Of a stretch of 64,000 nt of DNA, positions 32,083 through 35,322 are shown one piece after another. Every line of letters begins with the position of its first letter. Position 1 is the first letter of the stretch. The notes beneath the pieces are model-generated. The model had not been told where the DNA came from and searched no databases. It worked only from the letters and a program-made list of their open reading frames with translations. A program made the position numbers and the translations under genes. The stretch is from Allopusillimonas ginsengisoli (GTDB lineage Bacteria; Pseudomonadota; Gammaproteobacteria; Burkholderiales; Burkholderiaceae_B). Location of the stretch: positions 1 to 64,000 of the forward strand of contig NZ_SDQE01000018.1 of assembly GCF_004153455.1 (NCBI RefSeq), in the 5' to 3' direction.

Positions 32083-32159
32083 TGGTAGGCAGTACTGGAT
32101 TCGAACCAGCGACCTCTACGATGTCAACGTAGCGCTCTAACCAACTGAGCTAACCGCCT
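32083..32159 (-). tRNA. tRNA-Val(GAC)
   Basis: 77 bases read on the reverse strand. The acceptor stem AGGCGGU pairs with ACUGCCU, with one G-U pair; the D arm is GCUCAGUUGGUUAGAGC; the anticodon stem-loop is CUACG-UUGACAU-CGUAG, giving anticodon GAC for Val GUC codons; the T arm contains GGUUCGAAUCC; the 3' CCA is encoded. It has its own promoter and terminator, so it is a monocistronic tRNA gene. Confidence 0.95.
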
Positions 32160-32203: not shown

Positions 32204-32624
32204 ACCGCAGGCACAGGCCCGGATCGATGGCATAGGTGGGCATAGCGAGCCAACATTTACCACGATGAGTGCGCAAAATCTATCCAGGCAACGTCACCGG
32301 CGTCATCCTTGCGGCTTTGCGCGAAGTGTTCACGAGTTGTACTCAGGCTTATTCACATGCTGTGTGAATAAGTTTGCTGCGCGCGTCCGTCCTGCAAAAA
32401 GGAAAAAGGCCTGATCGCGCCGCGGCTATGAAGCCTCGTTCACGCTATTTGGTCATCACGGATCACGCTTAGCGGGTTGCGGCCCGGCAGGCCGACGATG
32501 CGCAAAAACTGGCGATATCTGTCCTGATAAGTGGCCGTAAGGGCTTTTTCGCAACATTGCGCCTGGTTTTCGGCCTGGATATGAACGAATCTGTCGGCCA
32601 GTGACGGTGATTTCACCCGTGGGT
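32204..32624. other. Gene-free stretch upstream of the thrS leader
   Basis: About 420 bases between the tRNA-Val promoter and the thrS leader promoter. No open frame with coding character, tRNA, repeat or clear hairpin was recognised. The 235 bases between trpF and the tRNA terminator are equally empty. Confidence 0.5.
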
Positions 32625-32653
32625 GTTACACTAAGGAACGAATGTTATATATA
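32625..32653 (+). promoter_or_regulatory. Candidate promoter of the thrS leader transcript
   Basis: GTTACA at 32625-32630 and TATATA at 32648-32653 with 17-base spacing, each matching 4/6. The predicted start point falls around 32660, a few bases before the leader peptide ATG, so the leader would have a very short or absent 5' untranslated region. A start further upstream is possible. Confidence 0.4.
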
Positions 32654-32664
32654 CCTTTTTCTCC

Positions 32665-32706
32665 ATGAGCACAAACACTACGCGAACTACGACACGGCAC
32701 CCATGA
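32665..32706 (+). CDS. Threonine-rich leader peptide of thrS (13 aa)
   Basis: ATG AGC ACA AAC ACT ACG CGA ACT ACG ACA CGG CAC CCA TGA encodes MSTNTTRTTTRHP. Six of 13 codons are Thr (residues 3, 5, 6, 8, 9 and 10), directly upstream of threonyl-tRNA synthetase and of a terminator hairpin. This composition and position are those of an attenuation leader: the ribosome would stall at the Thr codons when charged tRNA-Thr is scarce. No strong Shine-Dalgarno is visible, which fits a transcript starting close to the ATG. The peptide itself probably has no function. Identification rests on sequence only. Confidence 0.8.
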   Translation: MSTNTTRTTTRHP

Positions 32707-32758
32707 TTGCCGCCGCGTACTGTTTTGTCTGCCTGCTAGCAAAACCAATTTACCGATG
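32707..32758 (+). promoter_or_regulatory. Antiterminator region of the thrS attenuator
   Basis: GCCGCGT at 32712-32718 is an exact copy of the right arm of the terminator (32770-32776). Both can therefore pair with the single ACGCGGC at 32759-32765. The copy starts six bases after the leader stop, so a ribosome sitting at the stop would cover it and let the terminator form, while a ribosome stalled on Thr codons would leave it free. GTTTTG (32722-32727) and CAAAAC (32740-32745) can fold inside the antiterminator loop. ACGCG at 32680-32684 within the Thr codons can also pair with CGCGT at 32714-32718, a candidate protector stem. Confidence 0.7.
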
Positions 32759-32787
32759 ACGCGGCCAGGGCCGCGTTTTTGTTTTTT
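32759..32787 (+). terminator. Attenuator terminator upstream of thrS
   Basis: ACGCGGC (32759-32765), loop CAGG, GCCGCGT (32770-32776), then TTTTGTTTTTT: a GC-rich 7-bp stem with a strong U-tract. It lies between the leader peptide and the thrS Shine-Dalgarno (AGGA at 32789-32792), where it would stop transcription before thrS. Confidence 0.85.
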
Positions 32788-32798
32788 CAGGATGTTTT

Positions 32799-34745
32799 AT
32801 GGTTCAGATTACCTTGCCCGATGGCTCGCTGCGCGAGTATCCAGGCCCCGTTTCCGTTAGCGACGTTGCCCACTCCATAGGCACCGGGCTCGGTCGCGCT
32901 GCCTTGGCGGGAAGGGTGACGCAGGATGGCGCTGAGCCCCGGTTGGTGGATACCAGCTTCGTCATCGACCGTGACGCTCAGCTGGCTATTGTTACGGCCA
33001 AGGATGCCGATGGCCTGGACCTTATTCGTCACTCCACGGCTCACCTGTTGGCCTACGCGGTCAAATCGCTGTTTCCGGATGCGCAGGTCACCATTGGCCC
33101 CGTCATCGACAATGGCTTTTACTACGATTTTTCCTATAAACGTCCTTTCACGCCCGACGATCTGGCTGCCATCGAACGGAAAATGGCGGAGCTCGCCAAG
33201 AAGGACGAAATCGTTACGCGTGAAGAATGGCTGCGCGACGACGCAGTCAAGTATTTTGAAGGGATCGGCGAGCATTACAAGGCGGAGATCATTGCTTCGA
33301 TTCCCTCCAACGAGCCCATCAGCCTGTATCGCGAAGGCGATTTCATCGATCTGTGCCGTGGCCCACACGTTCCGTCCACGGGCAAACTGAAGGTCTTCAA
33401 GTTGATGAAGGTGGCTGGCGCCTATTGGCGCGGTGACAGCAACAACGAGATGCTGCAGCGCATCTATGGCACCGCCTGGGCCACCAAGGAAGAGCAGGCG
33501 GCTTACCTGCACATGCTGGAAGAGGCCGAGAAGCGAGACCACCGCAAGCTGGGTCGTGAACTCGATTTGTTCCACTTTCAGGATGAGGCGCCAGGCTTGA
33601 TTTTCTGGCATCCCAAGGGATGGACGCTGTGGCAGCAGGTCGAGCAATACATGCGCCGTGTCTATCAGGACAATGGCTACGAAGAGGTCAAGGCGCCGCA
33701 GATACTGGATCTTTCCCTCTGGAAGAAAACCGGCCACTGGGATAATTACGCCGAAAACATGTTCACGACCGATTCCGAGAACAGGGTTTATGGCCTGAAG
33801 CCCATGAACTGTCCCGGGCATGTGCAGATTTTCAACAGCAACCTGCATTCGTATCGCGAACTGCCGGTGCGTTACGGAGAGTTCGGCCAGTGTCACCGCA
33901 ACGAGCCCTCGGGTTCGCTGCACGGAATGATGCGTGTGCGCGGTTTCACGCAAGACGACGGCCATATTTTTTGCACAGAGGATCAGCTCCAGGAAGAGTG
34001 CGCGGCTTTTACGGCGCTATTGCAGAAAGTCTATGCGGATTTCGGTTTCGACCAGATACTGTATAAGGTAGCCACGCGGCCTGAAAAGCGGATCGGCGCT
34101 GACGATGTCTGGGACAAGGCTGAAAAGGCCTTGATGGACAGCCTGGATCACACCGGCTGTGAATACGAAATTTCGCCAGGCGAGGGCGCCTTCTACGGCC
34201 CCAAAATTGAATACACACTCACGGATGCCATTGGCCGTCACTGGCAGTGCGGCACTATTCAGGTGGATTTTTCCATGCCGCAGCGTTTGGGCGCCGAGTA
34301 TGTTGACGCAAGTGACCAGCGTCGCACCCCTGTCATGCTGCATCGTGCCATACTGGGTTCGCTTGAGCGGTTTATCGGCATGCTCATCGAGAATCACGCT
34401 GGCGCCATGCCTGCATGGCTTGCGCCGCAGCATGCCGTGGTGTGCTGCATTTCAGAAGCGTCTGCAGAATATGCCTCTCAAGTTGCCCTAAGCCTGAAAA
34501 AACAAGGGTTTAGAGTTGATTCTGATTTGCGTGGTGAAAAAATCACCCGTAAAATTCGTGAACATAGCATGCAGAAGTTGCCATATATATTGGTGGTAGG
34601 CGAAAAAGAGCGCGAATCCGGCAATGTGGCAGTACGTGGCCGTGGCGGGCTGGATTTGGGCGTCATGCCTCTTGACCAGTTTTCGGCACGCCTGAAGAAC
34701 GAAATCGATAACAGGCTGAGCAGCGGCGAAGCTGCTTCCGCCTGA
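32799..34745 (+). CDS. thrS: Threonyl-tRNA synthetase
   Basis: 648 residues. TGS domain at about 1-65; an editing domain with the HxxxH motif His78/His82 in [16 protein letters not shown] and [12 protein letters not shown]; a class II catalytic core with motif 2 [20 protein letters not shown]; and a C-terminal anticodon-binding domain from about 545. It charges tRNA-Thr and removes mischarged Ser. Preceded by an attenuator and followed 28 bases later by infC. In E. coli thrS is instead repressed translationally by ThrRS binding its own mRNA; the leader here points to a different mode. Confidence 0.98.
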
Positions 34746-34773: not shown

Positions 34774-35322
34774 ATCGCAACCGATAAATCTCATCGCATT
34801 AATGGTGAAATCCGTGTCCCGGAGGTTCGCCTCATTGGCACGGATGGTGAACAACTTGGCGTTCTGAAAACCGCCGAGGCTATACGTTTGTCAGAGCAAC
34901 ACGAAGTGGACCTGGTCGAAATCGCACCCAATGCGGTGCCGCCAGTTTGCCGCCTGATGGATTATGGCAAGTTCAAGTACCAGGAGCAAAAGCGCCAGCA
35001 AGAAGCGCGCGCCAAGCAAAAGACTATACAGGTCAAGGAAGTCAAGTTTCGTCCCGGAACCGATGAAGGCGATTACCAGGTCAAGCTGCGCAATCTGCGC
35101 CGTTTCATCGAAGAGGGCGACAAAGCCAAGGTCACCTTGCGTTTCCGTGGCCGCGAAATGGCCCACCAGGAACTCGGCATGCGCGTACTCGAACGCGTGC
35201 GCGACGATCTCAATGAGCTCGTCCAGGTGGAAGCCATGCCCAAGCTTGAGGGGCGTCAGATGGTGATGGTGCTTGCGCCGCGCAAAAAAGCCACGCCAGG
35301 CAAGGGCGAGTCCGCTTCCTGA
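34774..35322 (+). CDS. infC: Translation initiation factor IF-3, ATC start
   Basis: 182 residues. The conserved N-terminal part [20 protein letters not shown] lies upstream of every ATG, GTG or TTG in frame, except for a TTG at 34888 that would remove the first 38 residues. The only sensible start is the ATC at 34774, eight bases after the AGGAG at 34761-34765. Initiation of infC at a non-standard codon (AUU in E. coli) is the known basis of autoregulation, because IF-3 rejects such starts. [20 protein letters not shown] and [12 protein letters not shown] are typical of the C-terminal domain. It follows thrS as in E. coli. Confidence 0.95.

Follow-up and report, generated by a model that had tools for sequence, protein, structure and literature searches.

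In Escherichia coli, thrS carries a translational operator at which binding of threonyl-tRNA synthetase (ThrRS) blocks translation, and in Firmicutes, T-box thrS leaders sense the charging of tRNA-Thr by reading the tRNA directly and switch a terminator located before thrS. Control through translation of a leader peptide is known from E. coli thrL-thrABC, in which Thr codons in a short leader precede alternative hairpins and an intrinsic terminator and which controls threonine biosynthesis and senses isoleucine too, and from E. coli pheM-pheST, in which a leader peptide with cognate codons controls an aminoacyl-tRNA synthetase operon by attenuation. For Streptomyces lividans TK24, the authors of PMC8079986 proposed a threonine-dependent attenuator, thrL-thrS, from RNA-seq, and they also list leaders before alaS, leuS, and trpS. 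In bacilli, His leader peptides with an intrinsic terminator have been predicted before hisS/hisZ (PMC2965389).

We analyzed a window of 64,000 nucleotides from Allopusillimonas ginsengisoli (contig NZ_SDQE01000018.1), in which an ORF with cognate codons lies upstream of an intrinsic terminator in the thrS 5' untranslated region (Table 1). Sequence tests on the window and on close relatives support well that this is a real ribosome-mediated attenuator, and we assign a probability of roughly 0.86 to the reading that charged tRNA-Thr is sensed here by a leader-peptide transcription attenuator with control over thrS and, probably, infC.

Table 1. Features of the thrS locus, in coordinates of the window
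Feature	Position	Strand	Remarks
tRNA-Val(GAC)	32083-32159	-	opposite strand to thrS
Extended -10 promoter-like element TGTTACACT	32624-32632	+	putative transcription start ~32639
Leader peptide ORF MSTNTTRTTTRHP	32665 (ATG) to 32706 (TGA)	+	13 codons, six Thr; translation predicted
Region 1 (ACGCG), protector arm within leader ORF	32680-32684	+	from sequence and folding
Codon pair CGA-ACT (Arg-Thr), leader core	32683-32688	+	kept in relatives
Region 2 (GCCGCGT), antiterminator arm	32712-32718	+	begins 5 nt past leader stop; from sequence and folding
Region 3 (ACGCGGC), common to antiterminator and terminator	32759-32765	+	
Loop CAGG between regions 3 and 4	32766-32769	+	
Region 4 (GCCGCGT, 32770-32776) and U-rich tract of intrinsic terminator	32770-32787	+	
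thrS Shine-Dalgarno AGGA	32789-32792	+	directly 3' of terminator; read from sequence
thrS, threonyl-tRNA synthetase, putatively regulated gene	32799-34745	+	Pfam TGS, tRNA_SAD, tRNA-synt_2b, HGTP_anticodon
infC (IF-3)	34774-35322	+	Pfam IF3_N, IF3_C on 34888-35322; frame open from 34774; start predicted

The preliminary description of this DNA had claimed the Thr-rich leader, the terminator before the thrS Shine-Dalgarno sequence, a second copy of its right arm upstream, and an ACGCG word within the leader; we found the leader in sequence and translation as claimed, and the terminator (32759-32787) and both upstream words are exact in the sequence. Chance tests within the window were of unequal weight. 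A pattern scan also listed the terminator but is weak support alone, because it returned 4 terminator-like sites in 2 kb where 2.0 were expected. At least six Thr codons occurred in 8 of 2,133 nested short ORFs (8 to 34 codons, both strands of the window), and the leader was the only one of those 8 with fewer than 23 codons. The observed complementarity to the terminator arm was reached by 1 of 60 dinucleotide shuffles of the spacer between leader stop and terminator. We regard conservation in relatives as stronger evidence than these tests.

Downstream, infC probably starts at an ATC codon 28 nt after thrS, non-canonical start codons being known for IF-3 genes, and it is probably cotranscribed with thrS. 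In the window the thrS-infC pair lies about 12 kb from rplT (L20, 47427-47744); thrS, infC, and rplT are often adjacent in other bacteria.

The locus differs from each of the described systems. The E. coli operator also regulates thrS, but the window instead has a terminator with alternation between regions 2 and 3, and the zone near the thrS start where that operator has its tRNA-like stem-loops is occupied here by the terminator. Firmicutes T-boxes share the signal and the terminator before thrS, yet neither the window nor 12 related loci gave a T-box match in Rfam at the gathering threshold. The Rfam Thr_leader model, which represents thrL-thrABC, likewise had no match there at that threshold, and the resemblance to pheM-pheST is one of mechanism, with Phe codons and other genes. 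The S. lividans thrL-thrS locus, as described in PMC8079986, also has a short Thr-codon leader ORF upstream of thrS; however, it belongs to an actinobacterium, its leader (MKRVRPFLETTPGFVPAR) has 18 residues with two Thr and lacks the Arg-Thr-Thr core, its transcript is said to start leaderless, and it has no clear Rho-independent terminator. The bacillar hisS/hisZ leaders place a cognate-codon leader before a synthetase-family gene as here, but in Firmicutes and for histidine, and the main text of that paper (PMC2965389) does not contain the term thrS.

No Rfam family matched the leader at gathering thresholds in the window or the 12 loci; only tRNA genes did. A covariance model of the leader, run over 300 genomes of the order, gave a match in 114 at E values up to 0.1, although strong matches were confined to the window's genus and all others were at 7e-6 or weaker. 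Because 13 of the 27 loci fetched by this model outside the genus do not contain thrS (14 do), we read thrS upstream regions directly instead. In the window's own genome, the next-best hit to the model (E of 0.2) was the other strand of the same terminator, followed by three at 0.58 to 2.7. The 350 nt upstream of hom held no Thr/Ile-rich short ORF as a sign of threonine control. The Bordetella small RNA S17 was considered as a terminated leader and rejected, as it sits between a glycosyltransferase gene and coq7 (PMC11722255).

ThrS matched in 194 of 200 genomes of the window's own family, from which 30 loci and 60 fetched upstream regions were used. Together with the best 80 of 586 named contigs, whose highest ThrS identities were in Alcaligenaceae or relatives, these gave 165 distinct thrS upstream regions, which were taken for the closeness of their ThrS to that of the window and not drawn at random. 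From those identities, the window's own family is probably Alcaligenaceae. A terminator lay within 260 nt of thrS in 151 of the upstream regions, and in 114 of those 151 it was also preceded by a short ORF that was Thr-rich or contained Arg-Thr-Thr. We added an order-wide set (108 of 110 genomes matched; upstream regions read at 99 of 109 other listed places), bringing the distinct terminator-bearing upstream regions to 221. The word CGAAC occurred within 140 nt 5' of the terminator in 144 of these, compared with 14% in mononucleotide shuffles, and was missing as a core from the remaining 77. In 136 of the 144, it formed an in-frame CGA-ACN within an ORF that starts at ATG and closes upstream of the terminator, while frames +1 and +2 each accounted for 5. 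The expectation that the leader codons are kept as Thr in relatives is thus borne out for the Arg-Thr core in the upstream regions compared.

Beyond the window's own family, 15 of the 48 other families read had an in-frame leader with a terminator. Leaders of MTP(R) type made up 43 of the 64 in-frame leaders found there; Ralstonia leaders read MIQAPRTTT or MIRAPRTTT, and the Pandoraea leader reads MIARTFT. In other orders of the class, CGAACTAC was found in 0 of 28 loci (350 nt before thrS, from 28 of 130 matched genomes). Four of these loci (L178, L193, L195, and L200) have terminator-like hairpins 45 to 86 nt before thrS without a Thr leader, which may be other attenuators or the ends of upstream genes.

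For positional comparisons, we used an alignment of 44 short-leader loci picked by hand from 72 own-family rows after their region 2 offsets had been inspected; long-leader and odd rows were left out, and results on these 44 therefore lean towards the attenuator reading. In 43 of these, a TGnTAnAnT-like extended -10 word ended 29 to 44 nt ahead of the leader ATG, with 1.2 of 44 expected from mononucleotide shuffles; a stricter two-hexamer scan did not report the window's element. The distance from the end of the terminator stem to thrS was 17 to 24 nt in all but one of the 44 loci, which makes a promoter downstream of the terminator implausible on sequence grounds. There was no clear Shine-Dalgarno sequence before the window's leader, and among the aligned leaders, 6 had an SD-like motif and 38 had none. 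In the MTP type, 38 of 43 loci had a conserved GAAAGGC-like box no more than 24 nt ahead of the leader start, where the box (GAGAAAGGC-like) was followed by GGTTATGACACCG. This box is perhaps a Shine-Dalgarno sequence, and pairing of GGT with ACC could form a short stem-loop enclosing the start codon.

We then examined by constrained folding how a ribosome, assumed to cover the RNA from 18 nt before the first A-site base to 12 nt after it, could alter pairing. In window RNA ending before region 4, ribosome-free folding gave a P(1:2) of 0.83 and a P(2:3) of 0.15; placing codon 8 in the A site raised P(2:3) to 0.95, and placing the stop codon there lowered it to 0.00. Both parts of the earlier proposal that bear on this RNA fared well, namely that the region 2 copy is covered by a ribosome at the stop and free when one is stalled on Thr codons, and that the ACGCG word could form a protector stem. 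An antiterminator that excludes the terminator was found by constrained folding for RNA ending before region 4 and not at full length. Because the full-length RNA favored the terminator (3:4) in every ribosome state, the switch, as modeled, must be kinetic; the terminator winning in completed RNA is compatible with a kinetic decision and is not proof of it.

Across the 44 picked loci, P(2:3) exceeded 0.5 in 42 when stalled, 10 when ribosome-free, and 0 at the stop. Region 3 was held by any upstream RNA with mean probabilities of 0.51 free, 0.92 stalled, and 0.39 at the stop, compared with 0.66, 0.72, and 0.67 for shuffled spacers; other upstream RNA therefore still partly holds region 3 at the stop codon. 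The stalled value exceeded the stop value by more than 0.2 in 95% of the 44 (12% of shuffles), and a stalled value above 0.5 combined with a stop value below 0.3 occurred in 36% (3% of shuffles). The distance from the first Thr codon to the stop was 18 nt in 36 of 42 loci.

We repeated the ribosome test, without picking, on all 135 in-frame loci, with shuffled spacers as the control. A difference above 0.2 appeared in 74 of 135 loci versus 97 of 810 shuffled spacers, while the reverse effect, in which the terminator 5' arm is held worse when the ribosome is stalled, appeared in 3 of 135 versus 24 of 810. Restricted to the window's own family, again unpicked, the counts were 48 of 71 versus 60 of 426, with the reverse in 0 of 71 versus 8 of 426. 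By group, the effect was present in 38 of 42 loci of the aligned group, 17 of 43 of the MTP type, and 9 of 21 in other families, and it was weaker beyond the picked loci, at 10 of 29 in the rest of the own family versus 27 of 174 shuffled. Taken with the in-frame leaders in 136 of 144 upstream regions, these counts uphold the original proposal of a Thr-codon, ribosome-mediated attenuator before thrS.

Evidence from the pairing arms themselves was mixed. Region 2:3 complementarity averaged 16.8 against 13.9 for shuffled spacers (113 loci), but only 36 of the 113 exceeded 95% of their own spacer shuffles, and own region 3 arms were matched little better than foreign ones (mean 16.5 versus 15.0 in 134 loci). 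The terminator stem varies on both sides between groups, with 61 inner-stem types when leaderless terminators are included (for example CGCGGC/GCCGCG, GTGCGG/CCGCAC, TGCAGC/GCTGCA, and CTCGAC/GTCGAG). Matching changes of the kind foreseen for the alternative arms occurred in eight region 3 types (14 loci, for example Pandoraea L057 and Acidovorax L094), where region 2 fits its own region 3 better than at least 90% of foreign arms. The window's group shows no covariation, its arms being almost invariant, which leaves pair counts silent, and in the three types AAGTGCGGC, AAGCGCGGC, and AAACGCGGC (10 loci each), region 2 fits its own region 3 no better than foreign arms. Between leader stop and terminator, L050, L052, L057, and L049 have a U-rich word (for example TTTTTCGTC) that looks like the terminator tail. 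It may be a U-rich region 2 that pairs with the A-run of the terminator arm, and in L050 and L052 such a region 2 is able to pair with the A-run before region 3.

The most constrained element of the leader was the codon pair CGA-ACT. Among 113 leaders chosen by amino acids alone (containing RTT), which are related to each other and so do not give independent counts, the Arg codon was CGA in 110 and the first Thr codon was ACT in 104, while the second Thr codon was mixed (ACG 54, ACC 25, ACT 19, ACA 15). For comparison, CGA has a share of 3.7% among the Arg codons of six window genes, and ACT a share of 8.3% among their Thr codons. Leaders picked by GGTTATGACNCC before codon 4 concurred (CGA in 40 of 43, ACT in 39 of 43), and in 10 of 135 leaders, the four codons after the Arg codon include a single Thr. 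The earlier view of a Thr-codon leader therefore stands insofar as the leader is conserved as coding sequence, but what is conserved is the CGA-ACT pair and not the number of Thr codons, the later ones of which vary. On these comparisons, much of Burkholderiales appears to have retained the pair with hardly a base altered, even as the remaining Thr codons, the peptide outside the pair, and the RNA arms diverged. In folds of 136 leaders, the C and G of the core were paired at about 0.8 and AACTA at 0.40 to 0.54; as CG is usually paired and AACTA less so, we rejected conservation of CGAACT as a product of pairing.

That the leader is translated, that transcripts terminate in the cell, that the decision is kinetic, and that threonine governs the outcome are steps that we infer, and they could be ordered as follows. 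RNA polymerase would start near 32639, and a ribosome would translate the 13-codon leader. With ample Thr-tRNA, the ribosome would reach the stop codon and mask most of region 2, leaving region 3 to pair with region 4 and transcription to stop around 32787. Under a shortage of Thr-tRNA, the ribosome would wait on the Thr codons and mask region 1, so that region 2 could capture region 3 ahead of the synthesis of region 4, and polymerase would read into thrS. If the leader were untranslated, region 1 would pair with region 2 and the terminator would form.

Feedback of the E. coli kind, in which ThrRS binds its own leader RNA and decides termination while the leader ORF is incidental, would fit the regulation of ThrRS expression by ThrRS in E. 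coli (noted in PMC2965389) and the conservation of AACTA although it is mostly unpaired in folds. It does not account for a core that sits in frame 0 in 136 of 144 upstream regions, inside closed ATG ORFs, or for the finding that ribosome positions explain the alternative pairing in a larger share of loci than of shuffles, and we consider it highly improbable. The least probable account is that of a plain terminator for an upstream unit such as tRNA-Val, without regulation. Among 269 upstream regions (not deduplicated), 88 do have a tRNA-Val(GAC) gene in the 500 nt before thrS and on its strand, and 13 have one on the other strand; in some loci, such as L300, L289, L255, and L328, a terminator comes straight after the tRNA and no leader intervenes. 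In the window, however, the tRNA-Val gene is encoded on the strand opposite thrS, with a promoter-like element and the leader lying between, and the terminator abuts the thrS Shine-Dalgarno sequence; a plain terminator would need neither region 2 nor the leader geometry. The attenuator may have grown between the tRNA terminator and thrS.

What the codon pair does is a further question. A tentative proposal, to which we give somewhat less than even odds, is that the sensor is the single codon pair, with a slow CGA in the P site and a wait for the Thr-tRNA that decodes ACU, the mini-ORF having perhaps been placed beside the tRNA-Val terminator. Alternatively, CGAACU could be an RNA-level motif, such as a protein-binding site or an unusual loop, within a leader that is still translated, so that the motif and not slow decoding is the special sensor. 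The near fixation of the third positions of CGA and ACT and the persistence of the motif where later Thr codons are lost both speak for this, but the reading frame is conserved, a his-leader assay in Salmonella showed slower decoding for CGA than for CGU or CGC (PMC4046918), and avoidance of a perfect region 3 copy (ACGCGG) in the leader could also favor CGA. We consider an RNA-level motif unlikely.

A Thr attenuator on thrS had been put forward as unexpected. The proposed S. lividans thrL-thrS (PMC8079986) and E. coli pheST are precedents for it. Our search found no report of a thrS leader in Burkholderiales, but the closely titled work of Lopatovskaya, Seliverstov, and Lyubetsky (2010) may already predict this one. 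Since no Rfam family matched, the leader could be added to Rfam as a family.

The ribosome-mediated attenuator would give a large bacterial order a defined, testable control of threonyl-tRNA synthetase, and probably of IF-3, that differs from both the E. coli operator and the Firmicutes T-box. As read from the sequences, the window's bacterium and many of its relatives would probably raise production of the enzyme in response to a scarcity of charged tRNA-Thr. The fixed CGA-ACT pair is an unusual feature of this thrS attenuator, and its near invariance offers a natural case in which to ask whether slow codon pairs, besides cognate codons, set the sensitivity of attenuators.
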